33,783 nt of DNA from an uncultured Quadrisphaera sp. (GTDB lineage Bacteria > Actinomycetota > Actinomycetes > Actinomycetales > Quadrisphaeraceae), in NCBI GenBank assembly GCA_902806005.1, contig CADCUY010000602.1, forward strand, positions 1-33,783, given 5' to 3'. Within the stretch, counting starts at the first letter, position 1. Each line of letters begins with the position of its first letter. This document shows, in pieces, positions 3,442 through 14,699 of the stretch. A program made the position numbers and the translations under genes. The notes under the pieces were generated by a model that saw only the letters and a program-made list of their open reading frames with translations, had not been told where the DNA came from and searched no databases.

Positions 3442-4107
3442 TCAGTGGGCACCCGGGACGACCAGGCCGGTCTCGTAGCCGAGGACCACCGCCTGCGCCC
3501 GGTCGCGCAGGTGCAGCTTGTGCAGGATGCGGCTGACGTGGCTCTTCGTCGTCTGCTCCGCGATGTAGAGCGACCGCGCGATCTCGGCGTTGGTGCGCCC
3601 CAGCGCCACCAGCCTCAGCACCTCGCGCTCCCGATCGGTCAGCACCTCCAGCGCCACCGGGTCGAGCGCGGCGACCCCCGCGCCGTCCACGAAGCGCTCG
3701 ATGACCCGGCGGGTGACCTCGGGGGCGAGGGCGGCGTCCCCGTGGGCCACCTCGCGCACCGCGGCGACCAGCGCCGCCGGCTCGCTGTCCTTGAGCAGGA
3801 AGCCGGTGGCGCCGGCGCGCAGCGCCTCGTAGACGTGGTCGTCGGTGTTGAAGGTGGTGAGCATGAGCACCCGGGGCCGGTGCACGGAGGACTCGTCCAG
3901 GAGCTGCCGGACGGTCTCCAGCCCGTCCATGACCGGCATCCGCACGTCGAGGAGCACCACGTCCGGGCGCAGCTGGCGGTTCAGCTCCAGAGCCCGGCGG
4001 CCGTCGGGCGCCTCTCCCACCACCGACAGGTCGTCCTGGGCGTCGAGGATCGCTCCGATGCCGATCCTCACCATCGCCTGGTCGTCGACGACCAGCACCT
4101 CGATCAC
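3442..4107 (-). CDS. NarL/FixJ (LuxR-type) response regulator
   Basis: MIEVLVVDDQAMVRIGIGAILDAQ…VVLLDVRMPVMDGLETVRQLL…LTDREREVLRLVALGRTNAEIARSLYIAEQTTKSHVSRILHKLHLRDRAQAVVLGYE. Confidence 0.96.
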   Translation of the reverse strand: MIEVLVVDDQAMVRIGIGAILDAQDDLSVVGEAPDGRRALELNRQLRPDVVLLDVRMPVMDGLETVRQLLDESSVHRPRVLMLTTFNTDDHVYEALRAGATGFLLKDSEPAALVAAVREVAHGDAALAPEVTRRVIERFVDGAGVAALDPVALEVLTDREREVLRLVALGRTNAEIARSLYIAEQTTKSHVSRILHKLHLRDRAQAVVLGYETGLVVPGAH

Positions 4108-5384
4108 GGTGGCGGGGGTCCCTTCTCGAGGTCGGCGCCCGGTACGGGCAGGACGGCCGTGACGTCGTGACCACCGCCGTCACGCGGGCCGTGGTGCAGC
4201 CGCCCCCCGAGCGAGCGCGCCCGCTCCTCGAGGCCGAGCAGCCCCAGGCGCAGCCGGTCGGGGTCGTCGAGGGAGCCCGGTCCCAGGTCGGCGGGCGCCC
4301 GGGGGCCGGGCGGGGCGTCGTTGCGGACGGAGACGGTGACGAAGCCGGGCGGCTCGGCGACGACCGTGACCGTCGTGCGGGCACCCGTGGCGTGCCGCTC
4401 GACGTTGCGCAGCCCCTCCTGGACCACGCGGAAGACCGTGGCGCACAGCCCGGCGGAGTGCACGAGCGGGGTGTCCGTCAGGTCCATCACCAGGTCCGCC
4501 GGCGTGCCCGCCGCCCGCGCCCAGGCCACCTCGCTGGCGATCTCCTGCAGCCCCGGGACCGGGGTCACCTCGCAGCCGTCCTCGCCCTGCTCCCGCAGCA
4601 CCCGCAGCAGCTGGCCCAGGTCGCGCATCACGTCGCGCGAGCCGGCGGCGATCTCGCCGAACTCCGCGTTCGTGGCCGGGTCGGTCCCGGCCAGCCGGTA
4701 GGGAGCCGACGAGGCCTGCAGGTGGATCGAGGACATGCTGTGGGCCACCACGTCGTGCAGCTCGCGGGCGATGCGGGTGCGCTCCTCGGCCAGGGAGCGC
4801 CGGTCCACCTCCAGGGCCACCTCCTGCCAGGCCCGGGCGACCGAGGCCTCCGCCCCGATGCGGCGTCGCAGCCCGAAGGCCACGAACAGCGCCAGCCCGA
4901 GCACGAGCAGGTAGAGGACCAGCTCGTCGACGACCGACGACGGCGGCAGGTCGCGGGGGCCGGTGGTGCTGGTGGCCACGGCGGTCAGCACGGCCGTCGC
5001 GAGCGCCACAGCGGTCAGCACCGCGGTGCGCGGCGGCCACAGCACACCCACCGCGACGACCTGGAGCACCACGGCGAGCACCGCCGTTCCGGGCAGCGCG
5101 AGCAGCTCGAGCCCCAGGGGGCCGCGCCCCTCGACGGCCGTGCCCAGCACGAGCAGGCCGCCCACCTGCAGGGCGGTCGCCCAGACCGGGTGCCGCAGCG
5201 CCAGCGGCAGGGCGAGGCACTGGGCGGAGCACGCGAGGAAGGCCACCACCAGCGTGGTGCCGTACCCGAGGGCCGTCCACGGCACGGAGGCGGCCAGCAG
5301 CAGCGCCGCCACCGCGGTGGCGCTGCGCGACCACAGCCACCTCATGGCGCGGCACACGTCCGCGGCGTCGCTCGGAGCGCTCAC
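4104..5384 (-). CDS. Sensor histidine kinase (HisKA_3 + HATPase), cognate to the RR at 3442-4107
   Basis: ELHDVVAHSMSSIHLQASSAPYRLAG…EGLRNVERHATGARTTVTV…LRLGLLGLEERARSLGGRLHHG; 4-nt ATGA overlap with the response regulator. Confidence 0.95.
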   Translation of the reverse strand: MSAPSDAADVCRAMRWLWSRSATAVAALLLAASVPWTALGYGTTLVVAFLACSAQCLALPLALRHPVWATALQVGGLLVLGTAVEGRGPLGLELLALPGTAVLAVVLQVVAVGVLWPPRTAVLTAVALATAVLTAVATSTTGPRDLPPSSVVDELVLYLLVLGLALFVAFGLRRRIGAEASVARAWQEVALEVDRRSLAEERTRIARELHDVVAHSMSSIHLQASSAPYRLAGTDPATNAEFGEIAAGSRDVMRDLGQLLRVLREQGEDGCEVTPVPGLQEIASEVAWARAAGTPADLVMDLTDTPLVHSAGLCATVFRVVQEGLRNVERHATGARTTVTVVAEPPGFVTVSVRNDAPPGPRAPADLGPGSLDDPDRLRLGLLGLEERARSLGGRLHHGPRDGGGHDVTAVLPVPGADLEKGPPPP

Positions 5385-5512: not shown

Positions 5513-5546
5513 CCCCCCGCTGCCGGCAGCCGACGGCAGCGGGGGG
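5513..5546 (-). terminator. Strong hairpin CCCCCCGCTGCCG-(8 nt)-CGGCAGCGGGGGG just after ugd
   Basis: Perfect 13-bp arms, 14 nt past the UGD stop codon; no U-tract. Confidence 0.7.
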
Positions 5547-5559
5547 GCGGTCAGGTCCG

Positions 5560-6987
5560 TCAGGCCGCCGCGGCGTGCACGGGGGACGCCGCGCCCGTCG
5601 CCGTGGCGGCGGGCGAGGGGCGCCCCAGCCCGCGGTGGTCCCACCCCGCGGCGGCCCACCGCTGGGCGTCCAGGGCGTTGCGGGCGTCGATGACCCTGGG
5701 GTGTCGCACCACGGCGGCCAGGGCGGCGGGGTCGATCGAGCGGTACTCCTCCCACTCGGTGAGCAGCAGGACGACGTCGGCGCCCGCGCTGGCCTGCTGC
5801 GCGGTGGGGGCGTAGTCCAGCTCGGGGTGCTGGCGGCGGGCGTTGTCGACCGCGGCGGGGTCGGTGACGGTCACGTGGGCGCCCTCGGCGCGGAGGCGGG
5901 CCGCGACGTCGAGGGCCGGGGAGTCGCGCACGTCGTCGCTGAGCGGCTTGAACGCCGCTCCCAGGACGGCGACCCGGGCCCCGGCCAGGTCGCCGCCGAC
6001 CGCGGCGCGGGCGAGCTCGACGACCTTGGCGCGCCGGCGCAGGTTGATCGCGTCGACCTCGGTGAGGAAGCCGACGGCCTGGCCGGCGCCGAGCTCGGTG
6101 GCGCGGGCGGTGAAGGCGCGGATGTCCTTGGGCAGGCACCCGCCGCCGAAGCCGAGGCCGGCGCCGAGGAACTTGCGCCCGATCCGGTCGTCGTGGCCGA
6201 TGGCGTCGGCCAGGGTGGTCACGTCCGCGCCGGCGGCGTCGCAGACCTCGGCGATGGCGTTGATGAAGGAGATCTTCGTGGCCAGGAACGCGTTGGCGGC
6301 GACCTTGACCAGCTCCGCGGTGGGCCGGTCGGTGACGATCACCGGGGTCCCGGTGGCGATGGCGCGGGCGTACACCCGCCGCAGCAGGGTCTCAGCGCGG
6401 GTGGAGACGACCCCGAAGACGAGGCGGTCGGGGGTCAGGGTGTCGGCGACGGCGTGGCCCTCGCGCAGGAACTCCGGGTTCCACGCCACCTCCAGGTCGG
6501 TGGCGCTGAGGGTCTGGGCGAGGTCAGCGGCGGTGCCGACCGGGACGGTGGACTTGCCCACGATCACCGCGGTACCGGGCAGGACCTGGGCCAGGGCCTG
6601 GACCGCGGCGGTGACGTACTGGGTGTCAGCGGCCAGCTCACCAGGGCGCTGGGGGGTGCCCACGCACACGAAGACCACGTCGGCGCCCTGCAGGTCGCTC
6701 ACGTCGGTGGTGAAGGCCAGGCCCTCGCCGTGGGTGCGGGCCAGCAGGTCCTCCAGGCCGGGCTCGAAGAACGGGGCCCGGGCCTCGCGCAGGGCCTCCA
6801 CCTTGGCCGCGTCGACGTCGTACCCGATCACCCGGTGACCCAGGTCGGCCATGCACGCGGCGTGCACAGCCCCCAGGTACCCCAGGCCGACCACCCCGAC
6901 GGTCAACTGGCCGGAGCCGGACCCGGAACCGGGCTCGGAGCCGATGCTGGTGGGAGCAGTGGTGGGAGCGGTGGTGGGAGCAGTCAT
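5560..6987 (-). CDS. ugd: UDP-glucose 6-dehydrogenase family (UDP-Glc/GDP-Man dehydrogenase)
   Basis: LTVGVVGLGYLGAVHAACMADLGHRVIGYDVD (Rossmann), VPVGTAADLAQTL, NPEFLREGHAVADTLTPDRLVFGV, GLGFGGGCLPKDIRAF catalytic Cys motif; start MTAPTTAPTTAPTSIG at 6987. Confidence 0.92.
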   Translation of the reverse strand: MTAPTTAPTTAPTSIGSEPGSGSGSGQLTVGVVGLGYLGAVHAACMADLGHRVIGYDVDAAKVEALREARAPFFEPGLEDLLARTHGEGLAFTTDVSDLQGADVVFVCVGTPQRPGELAADTQYVTAAVQALAQVLPGTAVIVGKSTVPVGTAADLAQTLSATDLEVAWNPEFLREGHAVADTLTPDRLVFGVVSTRAETLLRRVYARAIATGTPVIVTDRPTAELVKVAANAFLATKISFINAIAEVCDAAGADVTTLADAIGHDDRIGRKFLGAGLGFGGGCLPKDIRAFTARATELGAGQAVGFLTEVDAINLRRRAKVVELARAAVGGDLAGARVAVLGAAFKPLSDDVRDSPALDVAARLRAEGAHVTVTDPAAVDNARRQHPELDYAPTAQQASAGADVVLLLTEWEEYRSIDPAALAAVVRHPRVIDARNALDAQRWAAAGWDHRGLGRPSPAATATGAASPVHAAAA

Positions 6988-7055
6988 GGTGGTCCTCTCG
7001 GGAGGTGGGGTGCTGCTGGAGCGGTGCTGGGGGAGCGGTGCTGGCGGGCCGAGGG

Positions 7056-8204
7056 TCAGGTGCACTCGATCGTGCTGAGCCCCTCCTCGGCGTCGATGGC
7101 CTCGTTGGAGCAGGTGACGCGGTTGCCGTCGACGTCCTTGACGTCGATCCCGTAGCCGGGCCCGCGCACGTCGGCGGTGTTGCCGTCGAAGGTGTTGTCG
7201 GTGCCCCAGCCGTCGACGACCTCCTGCACCTCGAAGCCGGAGCGCTCGGAGGTGGTGCCGCGGTTGGCCTGGACGAGCCACCCGTTGCCCTTGAGGTCCA
7301 CCCACGAGTCGGTGTCGTCGGCCATGCCGGCGCCGTCGAAGGTGTTGCCGTGCACCACCCCGCCGGTGGTGCCCTCCTTGATGTCGACGGCCTCGGCCGT
7401 GGTGTCGGTGATGGTGTTGGCGGTGATGACGTTGCGGTCGCTCTCGTCGGGCTCGCAGTCGCTCAGGTCGCACCAGTTGGACTCGGCGGTGCCGACGTAC
7501 ACGCCCTCGCCGAAGCGCTCCTTGCGCTGGCCGGTGTCGGAGATCGTCAGCCCGCGCACCACGTTGTCGGTGCTCCCGGTGCGCAGGTGCACCGCCTCGT
7601 CACCGATCTCGGTGACCGTCAGGTCCTGCAGCACGCTCGAGGTCGTGCCGTCGGCCATCACGCCCTTCTGGCCCTCGCGGACGGTGAACCCCACCAGCCG
7701 CCAGTGCGCCACCCCCTGCAGGTGCAGCACGAAGCCGTCGTCGGTGCCCGGGCCCTGCAGCACCGCGCCCGCCCTGCCGCACACCCACACCGGGTCGGTC
7801 TCCGTGCCGTCGGCGGAGGCGGTGAACTCGCCCTCGTACACCCCGTCGGCGAGGGTGACCAGGTCGCCCGGGCCCGCCTCGTCGAGCGCCTCCTGCAGCT
7901 CCTCGGCGTCGGTCACCTCGACGTCGCGGCCGGGGTCCCGGGCGCCGTCCGGGCAGGACACCGCGGCGGTGTCCGGCAGCCCCGCGGGCATCCGCACCGG
8001 GGCGGCCGTCGGGGCGGGGGGGCTCGCCGGCGCCGAGGACCCGGGCCGGTCGCCCCCGTCGGCGACGGGGCCGCCCGGTGGCAGCCCGCCCGGCAGGAGC
8101 GTCAGCAGCAGGACGAGGACGCCGACCGCGCTGACCGCCAGGAGCAGGGCGGTCGCGCCCACGGCCAGGCGGGCGGAGCCCACGTCGGTCAGGCGGTCGC
8201 TCAC
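7056..8204 (-). CDS. Membrane-anchored right-handed beta-helix protein (polysaccharide-lyase/chondroitinase-B-like fold)
   Basis: GTG start; N-terminal TM segment, Pro-rich linker, then VTDAEELQEALDEAGPGDLVTLADGVYEGEF and repeated N-x-I/F beta-helix coils; 4-nt overlap with the upstream gene. Confidence 0.8.
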   Translation of the reverse strand: MSDRLTDVGSARLAVGATALLLAVSAVGVLVLLLTLLPGGLPPGGPVADGGDRPGSSAPASPPAPTAAPVRMPAGLPDTAAVSCPDGARDPGRDVEVTDAEELQEALDEAGPGDLVTLADGVYEGEFTASADGTETDPVWVCGRAGAVLQGPGTDDGFVLHLQGVAHWRLVGFTVREGQKGVMADGTTSSVLQDLTVTEIGDEAVHLRTGSTDNVVRGLTISDTGQRKERFGEGVYVGTAESNWCDLSDCEPDESDRNVITANTITDTTAEAVDIKEGTTGGVVHGNTFDGAGMADDTDSWVDLKGNGWLVQANRGTTSERSGFEVQEVVDGWGTDNTFDGNTADVRGPGYGIDVKDVDGNRVTCSNEAIDAEEGLSTIECT

Positions 8205-9808
8205 GGGTGCCTCGGGGCCGCTCGCCGGCCGCCGCGCCGCCCGAGCAGCAGCGGACGGCGGAGGAGGGCCACCAGCAGCGGGACCCCGAGGATCAGGCCC
8301 CACAGGACCAGCAGCGGGTTCCAGCGCAGCAGCTGCTGCACCGAGGTCAGCCACGTCGTGTCCCGCTGGGTCTGACCGGCCAGCACCAGGTCGGTGGAGA
8401 CCCTGGTGGTCGGGTTCTCGCCGAGCTGGGCGCTGCCGGGCTCGGCGACGTTCACCGCGGCCCAGGCCCCGGTGATCCGGTTGCCGTCGACCTCGGCCTC
8501 GCGCACGGTGGGCAGCACGTCGACGGCGTAGCGGTAGCTGTCGGTGATGTCGTTGTCCACGACGGTGACCTCGGCCCGGTCCTTGACCCGGACCCCGACG
8601 TAGTTGTCGCGCAGGTCGTTGCCGGCGACGAGGTTGCGCTCCCCGCCCTCGATCTCGACGCCGCTGCCCTCGTTGCCGTAGGCGGTGTTGTCGATGACGA
8701 GGTTGCCGTCCGAGGGTGACAGGCGCGCGTCGCCCTCCACCGTGGTCGTCGACCGGCCGTCGTCGATCATGAAGCCGTGGCCGGCGTTGTCGAAGGAGGT
8801 GTTGCCGCGCATGACGTTGTTGTCGCAGCCGCGCGAGAAGATGAACCCGTGCCGGCCGTTCCCGCTGGCGGTGTTGCCCACGACGAGGAAGTTGTTGCTG
8901 AAGTCGTGCGGGTCGAAGCCGTACTCGTCGTTGTCGGTGAAGGCGTTGCCCGTCCAGTCCATCGCCTCGGCCTCGTGGGTGTAGGCGCCGAAGCGGTTGC
9001 GCGTGAACGTCGAGGCCGTCACCGTGCCGGTCACGGCCTCGCGGATCCTGCCCGACTCCGGCTCGGCCGAGCGGCCGCGCCAAGCGACCCCGGAGCTGGT
9101 GCCGGTGCCGAAGCCGAGGCTGTCGAAGACGGCGTGGTCGGCGTCGAAGCGCCCCGCGACCTGGAGCACGAAGGAGCGGCCGTCCGCGGTGTCCGCGTCG
9201 GGTGCGGCCGCCTCCTCGTCCCAGGAGGTGATCGAGACGGGCTGCTCCGGGGTGCCGTCGACCGTCAGGGTCCCCTGGGAGATCAGCGTGGCGAACTCCC
9301 GCGTGCTGCTGGTCAGCCGCACCACCGGGGTGGCGCCGTCGACGACCAGCGACGCCCCGCGGCCGACGTGCACGTGCGCCTCGAGCAGCACCGCCCCGTC
9401 CGGCCCGGTGGGCATGACCTCGGGGTGCAGGTCGCGCAGCTCCGCCAGGGTGTAGGGCTGGGCGCGCGGGCCGAGCACCACGGTGGGCAGCTCGCCCGGC
9501 CGGGCCGGGCCCTCCAGGGGGGCGTCGAGCCGGAAGGCCTCGACGACCGCCGAGGTGCTCAGCCGGCGGGCGATGCGGTGGCTCACCGAGTCGCGCTCGA
9601 GCTCGGCGAGCGCGACGTCGGTCGGGGTCTGGATCAGGGGCTCGTGGGGGACGGCGCCCAGCTCGGGCGGCCGTGCGGGCGGCTCGTAGGCGGCCGCCCC
9701 CACGACCAGCGCGGACGGCACCAGCAGCACCGCGAGGAGCGCGGTGACCAGGCGGCGGGCGCGGAGCTCGGCGCTGACGCCGCGGTCAGCTCGCACGGCG
9801 GCCCTCAC
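8201..9808 (-). CDS. Bitopic right-handed beta-helix protein, AlgG-like mannuronan C5-epimerase candidate
   Basis: N-terminal TM, NosD/CASH-type repeats, YGFDPHDFSNNFLVVGNTASGNGRHGFIFSRGCDNNVMRGNTSFDNAGHGFMIDDG, C-terminal TM (LLVLWGLILGVPLLVALL) and an Arg-rich tail. Confidence 0.75.
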   Translation of the reverse strand: MRAAVRADRGVSAELRARRLVTALLAVLLVPSALVVGAAAYEPPARPPELGAVPHEPLIQTPTDVALAELERDSVSHRIARRLSTSAVVEAFRLDAPLEGPARPGELPTVVLGPRAQPYTLAELRDLHPEVMPTGPDGAVLLEAHVHVGRGASLVVDGATPVVRLTSSTREFATLISQGTLTVDGTPEQPVSITSWDEEAAAPDADTADGRSFVLQVAGRFDADHAVFDSLGFGTGTSSGVAWRGRSAEPESGRIREAVTGTVTASTFTRNRFGAYTHEAEAMDWTGNAFTDNDEYGFDPHDFSNNFLVVGNTASGNGRHGFIFSRGCDNNVMRGNTSFDNAGHGFMIDDGRSTTTVEGDARLSPSDGNLVIDNTAYGNEGSGVEIEGGERNLVAGNDLRDNYVGVRVKDRAEVTVVDNDITDSYRYAVDVLPTVREAEVDGNRITGAWAAVNVAEPGSAQLGENPTTRVSTDLVLAGQTQRDTTWLTSVQQLLRWNPLLVLWGLILGVPLLVALLRRPLLLGRRGGRRAAPRHP

Positions 9809-11024
9809 CGGGAGCAGCCGCGACGGGGAGGCTGGCGGGGAGGACGATCTCGCCCTGGCCCTGCACCCGGCCGGCAGCCGTGCGGGTCAGCCAGCCCTGG
9901 CGGTTCATGGTCACGGCGGCCCACAGCTTGACCGGCAGGGCGACGAACGCCACGACCAGGGCCATCAGCGGGGCGAGGGCGAGGTCGCGGGGGTTCTCCC
10001 TCAGGTGCGACAGCCCGCGCAGCGACCGGCCGACCACGGCCCAGGCCAGCACCAGGGCGAGGGCGGGCCAGCCACCGCGGGTGGTCCACGCGACGCCGTA
10101 GAAGACGGCGGCGCCCATCGTCACCGGGGTCAGGAGCACCTGCAGCACCGTCACCTGCGTGATCAGCGGCTGGCGCCACAGCCACCCCTGGGCCAGAGCG
10201 GTCAGGTAGGTCCGGTAGGAGTTGCGGCTCCAGCGCACCCGCTGCCGCACGAAGGCGCTCCAGGAGTCGGGGAACATGGAGTCGGCCTGGGCCGAGGCCT
10301 GGTGCACGGTGCGGTAGCCGGAGGCCAGCACCAGCCAGGTCAGCCGGCCGTCGTCACCGGCGACGCAGTAGCGGCCCAGGAACTTCTCGTGCTCCAGCGC
10401 CGGCATCAGCGGCAGCACCACCGAGCGGCGGTAGGCGGCCGTGCGGCCCGAGAGCACCGCTACCGCGCCCCACCGCGACATCGCCGGCACGTAGTCGAGG
10501 TAGCGGGTGTTCAGCAGCCAGTACGCGACCCGCCGCCGGACGTCCGAGGACGGCAGGTGGACGTGCTGGCGCGAGCCGACGCCGCCGACCCGGGAGTCGA
10601 CGAAGGGCATCTGCAGGGCGGCCAGCGCCCCCGGCCGCCACGAGGTGTCGGAGTCGGCGAAGACCACGAGCTCGCTGGTCGCCGCCCGGACGCCCGCCCC
10701 CAGCGCACCGCGCTTGCCGGTGTGCCGCCACGGCAGCACCACGACCCGCGGCAGGTCGAGGCGGTGGAGCCTGGCCAGGAGCACCTCGTCGAGGTCGTCG
10801 ACGACGAGGATGACCTCGGTGGGGTCCTCGGCGAGCCAGGTGCGCAGGCAGCGCTCGAGGACGTCGGCGTCCTCCCGGTAGACCGGCACCACCACGGACG
10901 TGGTGGTGCGGTAGCCGTTGACCACCTCCCGGTAGCCGTGGTGCGACAGGGTGCGGCGGACCAGCCAGACCGACCAGGACAGCAGCCCGATCAGCCCGAT
11001 GGGCAGCCAGAAGGACGTGGACAC
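9786..11024 (-). CDS. Processive family-2 glycosyltransferase (hyaluronan synthase/NodC-like)
   Basis: SVVVPVYRED, VVFADSDTSWRPG, AGDDGRLTWLVLASGYRT, QRVRWSRNSYRTYL (QxxRW), several TM segments; 23-nt overlap with the epimerase-like gene. Confidence 0.9.
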   Translation of the reverse strand: MSTSFWLPIGLIGLLSWSVWLVRRTLSHHGYREVVNGYRTTTSVVVPVYREDADVLERCLRTWLAEDPTEVILVVDDLDEVLLARLHRLDLPRVVVLPWRHTGKRGALGAGVRAATSELVVFADSDTSWRPGALAALQMPFVDSRVGGVGSRQHVHLPSSDVRRRVAYWLLNTRYLDYVPAMSRWGAVAVLSGRTAAYRRSVVLPLMPALEHEKFLGRYCVAGDDGRLTWLVLASGYRTVHQASAQADSMFPDSWSAFVRQRVRWSRNSYRTYLTALAQGWLWRQPLITQVTVLQVLLTPVTMGAAVFYGVAWTTRGGWPALALVLAWAVVGRSLRGLSHLRENPRDLALAPLMALVVAFVALPVKLWAAVTMNRQGWLTRTAAGRVQGQGEIVLPASLPVAAAPGEGRRAS

Positions 11025-11100
11025 GGGGGGACCTCTCGACGGATCGCGCGAAGCGGGACGCCGACGCTCGCGCCGAGCTCCTGAGCGGGCTCGCGGGTGT

Positions 11101-11120
11101 CGTCGACGTGATCGACGCTA
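11101..11120 (-). promoter_or_regulatory. Candidate promoter/operator of the GT2-ugd operon: -10 TAGCGT overlapped by dyad CGTCGA-N5-TCGACG
   Basis: Dyad 11101-11117; minus-strand TAGCGT at 11115-11120, about 90 nt upstream of the GT2 start. Confidence 0.35.
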
Positions 11121-12872: not shown

Positions 12873-14699
12873 GTGGACCAGACCTACACGCCGATCGCCG
12901 ACCACGGAGCCATCGGCGACCTCCGCACGGCAGCCCTGGTGGGCGCGGACGGGCGGATCGACTGGTTCTGCTGCCCCCGCTTCGACTCCCCCAGCGTCTT
13001 CGGCGCCGTCCTGGACGCCGCCCGCGGCGGGCACTGGACCATCGCCCCGGCCGGCCGGGCCGGCAGCCGCCAGTTCTACCTGCCCGACACCAACGTCCTC
13101 GTCACGCGCTTCTCGGCGGCCGGCGGCGTCGTGGAGGTGACGGACCTCATGCCCGTCCTCCGCCCGCACGACCCGGACCACCGCCAGCGCCTGGTGCGCC
13201 GGGTGAGCGCCGTCCGCGGGTCGCTGGCGATGCGTTCCACCCTCGCTCCGCGCTTCGACTACGGCCGCGCCGAGCACACCGCGACCCCGCGCGAGGGGGG
13301 AGTGCTCCTCGCAGGACCCGGCCTGACCCTCGTCCTCACCACCGAGCTCCCCGTGGAGGTGAGCGACGGGGACGTCACGGGCGCCTTCACCCTCGACGAG
13401 GGCGAGGTGGCGACCTTCGTGCTCGACGTGGTGCCCGACACGGACCCCGGGCAGCACCCGGCGAGGGGCCCGGCGGCCCCGCCGGCGGACGCGGACGCGC
13501 TGGTGACCGGCACCATCGCCTTCTGGCGCGCGTGGGTGGGGCGCTCGCGCTACGCGGGGCGGTGGCGCGAGACGGTCAACCGGTCAGCGCTGACGCTCAA
13601 GCTGCTCACCCACGAGCCGAGCGGCGCCATCGTCGCCGCCGCCACGATGGGGCTGCCCGAGGAGATCGGCGGGAGCAGGAACTGGGACTACCGCCACGTG
13701 TGGATCCGCGACGCCGCCTTCTCCCTCTACGCCCTGCTGCGCCTGGGCTTCACCGACGAGGCGGAGGCGTTCATGGACTGGCTGACCGACCGCTTCACCG
13801 CCGGTGACGCCGACGCCGACGGCGACGGGCCCCTGCGGGTGGTGTACGACATCGACGGCCGCTCCACCGCGGGCGAGGAGGTGCTCGAGCACTGGGAGGG
13901 CCACCGCGGGTCGTTCCCGGTGCGGGTGCGCAACGACGCGGCCGACCAGCTGCAGCTGGACATCTACGGCGAGCTGATCGACTCGATCTACCTGTTCAAC
14001 AAGCACGGCAAGGGCATCTCCTACGACTCCTGGCGCAGCCTGCAGGGCGTCGCGGCGTGGCTGCAGGAGAACTGGGACCGCCCCGACGAGGGCATCTGGG
14101 AGGTGCGCTCGGGACGGCGAGCGCACACCTTCTCCCGCCTGATGTGCTGGGTGGCCCTGGAGCGGATGGCCCGGATGGCCCGTCAGCGCGGCCTGCCCGG
14201 CGACGTCGCGGACTGGTCGCGCACCCGCGACCGGATCTTCGCCGACATCCTCGAGCGCTGCTGGGACCCGCAGCTGCGCGCCTTCGTGCAGTCCCCCGGC
14301 AGCGGGGTGCTCGACGCGTCGGTGCTGCTCATGCCGATGGTCAAGTTCCTGGCTCCCAACGACCCGCGCGTGGTCTCCACCCTCGCGGCCCTCGAGGACG
14401 TCCTGGTCACCGACTCCCTGGTCTTCCGCTACGACCCCGCCGCCGCGCCCGACGGGGTGGACGGCGCGGAGGGCACCTTCTCGATGTGCTCGTTCTGGTA
14501 CGTCGAGGCCCTCACCCGCACCGGCCGGCTCGAGGACGCCCGCCTGGCCCTGGAGAAGATGTTCACCTACGCCAACCCCCTCGGCCTCTACGCGGAGCAG
14601 GTGGGCCTGACCGGGGAGCAGCTGGGCAACTTCCCCCAGGCCTTCACCCACCTGTCGCTGATCAGCGCCGCGATCAACCTCGACCGCGCGCTCGGCTGA
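12873..14699 (+). CDS. Glycoside hydrolase family 15 protein (glucoamylase/trehalase-like)
   Basis: VDQTYTPIADHGAIGDLRTAALVGADGRIDWFCCPRFDSPSVFGAVLD, NRSALTLKLLTHEPSGAIVAAATMGLPEEIGGSRNWDYRHVWIRDAAFSLYALLRLGF, GNFPQAFTHLSLISAAINLDRAL. GTG start in frame with the long ORF. Confidence 0.94.
   Translation: MDQTYTPIADHGAIGDLRTAALVGADGRIDWFCCPRFDSPSVFGAVLDAARGGHWTIAPAGRAGSRQFYLPDTNVLVTRFSAAGGVVEVTDLMPVLRPHDPDHRQRLVRRVSAVRGSLAMRSTLAPRFDYGRAEHTATPREGGVLLAGPGLTLVLTTELPVEVSDGDVTGAFTLDEGEVATFVLDVVPDTDPGQHPARGPAAPPADADALVTGTIAFWRAWVGRSRYAGRWRETVNRSALTLKLLTHEPSGAIVAAATMGLPEEIGGSRNWDYRHVWIRDAAFSLYALLRLGFTDEAEAFMDWLTDRFTAGDADADGDGPLRVVYDIDGRSTAGEEVLEHWEGHRGSFPVRVRNDAADQLQLDIYGELIDSIYLFNKHGKGISYDSWRSLQGVAAWLQENWDRPDEGIWEVRSGRRAHTFSRLMCWVALERMARMARQRGLPGDVADWSRTRDRIFADILERCWDPQLRAFVQSPGSGVLDASVLLMPMVKFLAPNDPRVVSTLAALEDVLVTDSLVFRYDPAAAPDGVDGAEGTFSMCSFWYVEALTRTGRLEDARLALEKMFTYANPLGLYAEQVGLTGEQLGNFPQAFTHLSLISAAINLDRALG

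Follow-up and report, generated by a model that had tools for sequence, protein, structure and literature searches.

Does a compact group of four genes in an actinobacterial genome encode the means to build a uronic-acid polymer and to modify it at the membrane, and which sugar would such a polymer contain? The window, i.e. the whole stretch of 33,783 nt that was analysed (contig C602), comes from an actinobacterial assembly of 2.86 Mb in 606 contigs, 76% complete. A sequence-only reading of this DNA had described the genes as a minimal operon for synthesis and remodelling of a uronate polymer; structure matches, co-occurrence of the genes in other genomes and the processive class of the synthase support this core proposal. 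We consider it likely (probability of about 0.7) that the four genes form a module of the synthase-dependent exopolysaccharide type, whose product would be an acidic uronic-acid polymer, with glucuronate (GlcA) feed, epimerisation and trimming all predicted from sequence and structural models.

Organization of the operon

The ORF check found four packed leftward ORFs, all on the minus strand, in the arrangement claimed earlier. They encode a GT2 synthase, a candidate epimerase (EPI), a predicted lyase (LYA) and a sugar dehydrogenase (UGD). EPI overlaps GT2 by 23 nt, LYA overlaps EPI by 4 nt, and a gap of 68 nt separates LYA from UGD, which starts with the ATG at 6987. The features are as follows.

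9786–11024, minus strand: GT2, HAS/NodC-like processive synthase, 412 aa; motifs DSDT (residues 124–127), GDDGRLT (223–229) and QRVRW (261–265), gating loop GWLTR
8201–9808, minus strand: EPI, AlgG-like C5-epimerase candidate, 535 aa; profile, PDB sequence and Foldseek matches
8903–8923, minus strand: EPI motif YGFDPHD, residues 296–302; motif scan and alignment of relatives
7056–8204, minus strand: LYA, predicted PL31-like tethered beta-helix polysaccharide lyase, 382 aa; match to PDB 6kfn (PsAly), fold, conserved catalytic residues
7497–7511, minus strand: LYA catalytic segment GEGVY (E233, Y236, equivalent to PsAly E181, Y184); alignment, roles from PMC6796002
7371–7397, minus strand: LYA catalytic segment AEAVDIKEG (E271, D274, K276, equivalent to PsAly E216, D219, K221); alignment, roles from PMC6796002
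5560–6987, minus strand: UGD, UDP-glucose 6-dehydrogenase, 475 aa; three Pfam domains, PDB 4a7p, catalytic Cys in GGGCLPKD (residues 281–288)
5513–5546, minus strand: hairpin past the UGD gene, probably a terminator; stem of 13 bp and loop of 8 nt, lacking a U tract

The hairpin with 13-bp arms proved stable (−41.1 kcal/mol, z = −3.2 against shuffled sequences). It is placed directly past the UGD stop codon, in the position of a terminator though without a U tract, and is likely to be one. The inverted repeat CGTCGA-N5-TCGACG at 11101–11120 had been taken for a promoter/operator. One further exact copy lies within GT2 and five more copies with one mismatch occur in the whole window; the repeat was not found upstream of the paralogous operon, a diverged second set of the four genes in the same assembly. 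These two findings, the copy inside a coding sequence and the lack of one upstream of the paralogue, led to rejection of the operator. No Rfam match indicating a structured RNA was found in the operon.

The synthase

GT2 matches Pfam family PF13641 (7e-27), the NCBIfam NodC model (116 bits, under the family cut-off) and hyaluronan synthase (HAS) in the PDB (8smm, E 4e-20 across residues 99–403). Its alignment with both HAS and NodC covers the catalytic domain and also takes in the C-terminal gating loop, and GT2 has the elements expected of a processive GT2: DxD, GDD/GED, QxxRW and a C-terminal transmembrane (TM) region with the gating loop. The assignment to the HAS/NodC-type processive synthases, made earlier from the three motifs, is borne out by the matches to both families. 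The four motifs, gating loop included, are all kept in 42 of 51 relatives; those without the full set are mostly copies of a distant variant or truncated ones. An N-terminal extension is present in Modestobacter and Microbacteriaceae, with three TIG domains in two copies scanned.

The main account has a more specific version, which we entertain tentatively: the product would be a hyaluronan- or heparosan-like heteropolymer of the bacterial glycosaminoglycan type, in which GlcA alternates with N-acetylhexosamine (HexNAc) and some GlcA is turned into L-iduronate by EPI. Hyaluronan synthases are the best solved relatives of GT2. The priming loop reads GDD as in HAS, while NodC has GED, and the HAS-like C-x-x-GDD segment is kept in GT2 and missing from NodC; moreover, the HAS gene of Chlorella virus is accompanied by a UDP-glucose dehydrogenase gene (PMC12987647). 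Nevertheless, identity of GT2 to HAS is low, and homopolyuronates are the substrates of the PL31 and AlgG relatives. The QxxRW arginine, which touches the GlcA carboxylate in HAS (PMC12987647), and the GKR lysine are present in NodC as well, hence they do not discriminate between the two.

The dehydrogenase

All three Pfam domains expected of a UDP-glucose 6-dehydrogenase are present in UGD, which scores above the cut-off of TIGR03026 and matches PDB 4a7p with 8e-97. The score is 323 bits to 4a7p, itself a UGD, versus 167 bits to the GDP-mannose dehydrogenase (GMD) 1mfz; the P. aeruginosa GMD reference sequence is near-identical to 1mfz across 436 residues. Given these scores, GMD identity was rejected for UGD. 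The earlier description as a nucleotide-sugar dehydrogenase with its catalytic Cys holds, but the proposed analogy to AlgD does not, the protein being of UDP-glucose type by score. Full-length dehydrogenases from cassettes of the main type show the same preference (302–383 bits to 4a7p vs 158–197 to 1mfz). The dehydrogenase of cassette L087 is more distant (166 vs 122 bits), and for the short dehydrogenase of a related variant of the cassette (in Frankia and others) the scores to GMD and UGD are about the same. Further NDP-sugar dehydrogenases are encoded elsewhere in the genome, and UGD can serve other pathways.

The AlgG-like beta-helix protein

Close to either terminus EPI carries a TM helix (residues ∼20–38 and ∼498–516). 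It matches the NCBIfam AlgG model NF038177 (7e-24) with 84 bits and is not filed as AlgG itself, because the curated cut-off is 700 bits; judged by sequence, it is a relative of AlgG and no equivalog. PDB sequences of AlgG are matched with 2e-16 by the single sequence and with 4e-34 by a 13-sequence profile. In the AlphaFold (AF2) model (mean pLDDT 79.6, >90 over most of the beta-helix) the protein adopts the AlgG-type right-handed beta-helix: the top four Foldseek matches in the PDB are all AlgG, with 4nk6 the best (E 3e-15, TMt 0.72). The structure search thus agrees with the AlgG-like DPHD motif noticed earlier, which is intact.

A motif of this type, YG(F/I)DPH(D/E), is common to known mannuronan C5-epimerases (PMC8824271); EPI carries it as YGFDPHD. 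Residues D299, P300, H301 and R326 are invariant in 13 close relatives from the subgroup of the window's EPI, and D302 is nearly so. DPHD (or DPHT/DPHS) is kept in this subgroup and in one distant variant. Nearly half of the aligned EPIs have an altered site (GLxVHRD or otherwise), in which the His usually remains and neither Asp does; at the genome level, the DPHD site was lost in 27 of the 32 genomes sampled. Homologues with a replaced DPHD may lack epimerisation, and whatever their role, standard AlgG chemistry is improbable for them. The PL31-like lyases in cassettes with altered DPHD keep a complete active site. Epimerisation as a trait of the whole EPI family was rejected, DPHD being lost in most members, and the predicted epimerase activity is limited to the window's subgroup because of the loss in those 27 genomes.

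These observations bear on an explanation that we regard as unlikely, namely that EPI is itself a lyase or a catalytically weak guide that binds the polymer, the PL31-like protein and GT2 being the only working enzymes. AlgE7 shows that this motif can sustain both lyase and epimerase activity (PMC8824271), and most cassettes lost the site yet keep the gene beside GT2, which suggests a non-catalytic role there. For the window's subgroup the argument goes the other way, since it has retained, like AlgG, the entire segment YGFDPHD ... HGFIFSR.

The PL31-like lyase

LYA has one N-terminal TM helix and matches by sequence (8e-43) PsAly, a PL31 alginate lyase from Paenibacillus FPU-7 (PDB 6kfn). The same protein is the top Foldseek match of the AF2 model (pLDDT 81.9), with E 3e-20, TMt 0.87 and rmsd 2.1 Å. 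The residues found to be catalytic or first-metal-binding in PsAly (PMC6796002) are in place: K128, H154, R156, E181 and Y184 correspond to LYA K180, H206, R208, E233 and Y236, and E216, D219, K221, D250 and K252 to LYA E271, D274, K276, D303 and K305. Among them are the Tyr184/Lys221 pair and the metal ligands Glu181, Glu216 and Asp219. All ten LYA residues are conserved in 15–16 of 16 cassettes.

Differences are found at the second metal site (Asp246, Gln276) and at His278, which are distinct from the catalytic residues. Asp246 is kept as D299 of LYA, while Q276 and H278 are replaced by E325 and Q327. These two positions are also altered in the two nearest relatives of LYA, whereas most relatives keep Q and H. 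Activity of the PsAly mutant H278A is much reduced (PMC6796002).

The sequence-only reading had seen here a second beta-helix, lyase-like protein comparable to AlgL, to be compared with AlgG and PL6. Its lyase-like character is supported by the fold and the active-site residues; assignments to the AlgL-like family PL5 or to PL6 were rejected, LYA being PL31-like by sequence and fold. PL41, the brown-algal type, is disfavoured as well, in that H206, R208, D303 and K305 are kept; their equivalents are absent from the algal SjAly (PMC6796002).

Conservation and variants of the cassette

EPI and GT2 were each searched over the same 395 actinomycete genomes. Linkage of the gene set is far beyond chance, because EPI and GT2, each found in 34 genomes, share 32 of them versus 2.9 expected (P about 2e-42, relatedness ignored); in one exception, G290, the contig ends just after GT2. 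The two genes are ≤9 kb apart in all 32 shared genomes and usually lie back to back. At the loci of these 32 genomes, LYA is near in 28 and an NDP-sugar dehydrogenase in 25, two of the latter being of the distant short type. A recurrent extra gene belongs to the PL14 family (PF21294; 13 of 32). This family includes both alginate and glucuronan lyases (PMC8618178), among them vAL-1, listed under EC 4.2.2.14 as a glucuronan lyase (PMC8618178), for which structures with bound glucuronate are available (PMC3764139).

Named carriers include Modestobacter, Kineococcus, Blastococcus, Planctomonas, Glaciihabitans, Nanopelagicales and Conexibacter. In several close relatives, from Microbacteriaceae, neither a lyase nor UGD lies near GT2 and EPI. 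Among 39 near relatives of the window's genome, that genome is the sole carrier, therefore the distribution of the cassette is patchy. In L073, which belongs to the same phylum but lies outside the window's class, EPI and GT2 are fused into one protein of 814 aa in the order beta-helix, hydrophobic segment, GT2, with the motif DPHT. Among the indirect indications that the emerging chain is the substrate of EPI, this fusion is the strongest. The survey of gene neighbourhoods across Actinomycetota, started from the EPI and the GT2 queries, thus bears out strong co-occurrence, the fusion included.

Comparison with known systems

Like the cassette, the Pseudomonas/Azotobacter alg system combines in one operon a membrane GT2, an extracytoplasmic AlgG-type beta-helix epimerase, a lyase and a nucleotide-sugar dehydrogenase. 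The cassette differs from it in having a dehydrogenase of UDP-glucose type in place of AlgD, a GDP-mannose dehydrogenase, a PL31-like rather than a PL5 lyase, a HAS/NodC-like GT2, and modifying proteins with TM anchors of their own. As anticipated by the sequence-only reading, no PilZ/Alg44 co-polymerase or outer-membrane export parts were seen by Pfam among the four genes and the nearest flanking genes; acetylation genes were not seen there either. Modules of hyaluronan synthase and UDP-glucose dehydrogenase resemble the cassette in that a HAS-type GT2 adjoins UGD; the cassette adds the predicted AlgG-like epimerase and uronate lyase, and its GT2 is shorter.

PsAly shares with LYA the fold and all catalytic and first-metal residues, but LYA is encoded with a synthase, is membrane-tethered and has E and Q at the Q276 and H278 positions. 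Compared by description, the brown-algal alginate genes (ManC5-E, PL41, GT2, GMD) also combine a DPHD-type AlgG-like epimerase, a lyase with the PsAly/SjAly catalytic residues and a GT2; algae, though, use GDP-mannose dehydrogenase where the cassette has the UDP-glucose type. Of the papers found, PMC11468063 is the nearest to the cassette: it records relatives of both the algal epimerase and the algal lyase in actinobacteria, without a synthetic pathway.

Proposed function

In the proposed scheme, UGD, by homology, would convert UDP-glucose to UDP-glucuronate. GT2, to judge by its family and motifs, would polymerise UDP-GlcA, either by itself or in alternation with another UDP-sugar, and extrude the chain across the membrane. 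EPI, held outside the membrane by its two TM helices, would invert uronate residues of the emerging chain at C5, as its fold and, in the window's subgroup, its intact motif suggest; if the feed is UDP-GlcA, the epimerised residue would be L-iduronate. LYA, anchored by its single TM helix, would cut the chain by beta-elimination, either trimming its length or clearing stalled polymer as AlgL does; where a PL14 lyase is present, it would trim by beta-elimination too. Polymer that becomes trapped in the periplasm of P. aeruginosa is removed by the alginate lyase (PMC8829089), and by analogy a similar role of LYA is plausible.

The signals for the sugar conflict: the dehydrogenase points to GlcA, and the characterised homologues of lyase and epimerase to mannuronate. 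We infer a GlcA-containing polymer, either a homopolymer or one with HexNAc, and place it well ahead of alginate. That the locus is a true alginate (mannuronate/guluronate) operon of a monoderm, with GDP-mannuronate supplied by the dehydrogenase or another gene, seems quite improbable to us: the closest characterised relatives of both beta-helix proteins do act on alginate, the closest bacterial relatives of brown-algal ManC5-E are actinobacterial (PMC11468063) and an actinobacterial origin of the algal alginate genes was proposed earlier (PMC8307928), but the linked dehydrogenase is of UDP-glucose type in full-length main-type copies, GT2 is HAS/NodC-like and no Alg44/PilZ partner was seen in the operon or among the flanking genes.

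Within the preferred GlcA-based account, we put forward as a speculative possibility that the product is an undescribed D-glucuronate/L-iduronate polymer, homopolymeric or glycosaminoglycan-like with HexNAc, made by a HAS-type synthase and a glucuronate-acting enzyme of AlgG fold, and that the brown-algal epimerase came from a source to which the cassette is related.

Significance

A literature search of open-licence papers found no description of the four-gene cassette and no biochemical work on it. In a large survey of operons for known synthase-dependent systems, the parts drawn on here report Gram-positive PNAG and Pel and no such uronate system (PMC7112194). The set, conserved in many soil actinobacteria, has apparently never been studied as a unit.

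Many actinobacteria do carry a linked set of genes for a synthase, an epimerase-like protein, a lyase and a sugar dehydrogenase. The cassette offers concrete genes for finding out if uronate polymers are produced by actinobacteria, and what kind of product the donor of the algal genes may have had. Should UDP-GlcA be the feed, the cassette would in addition provide a glucuronate C5-epimerase built on the AlgG fold, useful for making polymers that contain iduronate.

Second operon copy and divergence of the epimerase

The assembly from which the window comes contains, on contig C554, a complete duplicate of the operon (locus L032) with an identical gene order. Divergence between the two copies is unequal, with identities of 88% for the UDP-glucose-type dehydrogenase (UGD), 82% for the GT2 synthase, 76% for the lyase and 53% for the epimerase. 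The epimerase is the fastest-evolving of the four genes. In most cassettes (L035-L047, L089-L100 and others) the DPHD site is gone from the epimerase-like protein, with GLxVHRD or a similar motif instead; the gene still adjoins GT2.

Other genes in the window

Directly downstream of the operon are two genes with a 4-nt overlap, a possible regulator of the operon:

Window 3442-5384 (-): response regulator of the LuxR type, together with a HisKA_3 histidine kinase

The gene at window 12876-14699 (+) encodes a trehalase-like member of GH15 that carries a TREH_N domain.

Unusual architectures and cassette variants

A natural fusion of a beta-helix epimerase-like protein and a GT2 synthase, adjoining a short NDP-sugar dehydrogenase, was found as a single 814-aa ORF:

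L073:7320-9764 (-): epimerase-like/GT2 fusion ORF

At L054, L056-L061 and L063, GT2 has an apparently extracellular N-terminal extension of several hundred residues, with three TIG/IPT domains in the two copies scanned.

The epimerase is absent from a three-gene run on Curtobacterium plasmid pTCL:

L108:5917-10488: related GT2, glycosyl hydrolase and UDP-glucose/GDP-mannose dehydrogenase

A related variant of the cassette, from Frankia/Parafrankia and others (L067-L070, L074, L095, L101, L104-L106), has mostly YGVDPHS-type epimerase-like proteins, PL14-family lyase genes and a short dehydrogenase scoring nearly equally to GDP-mannose dehydrogenase and UGD; its uronate is possibly a different one.
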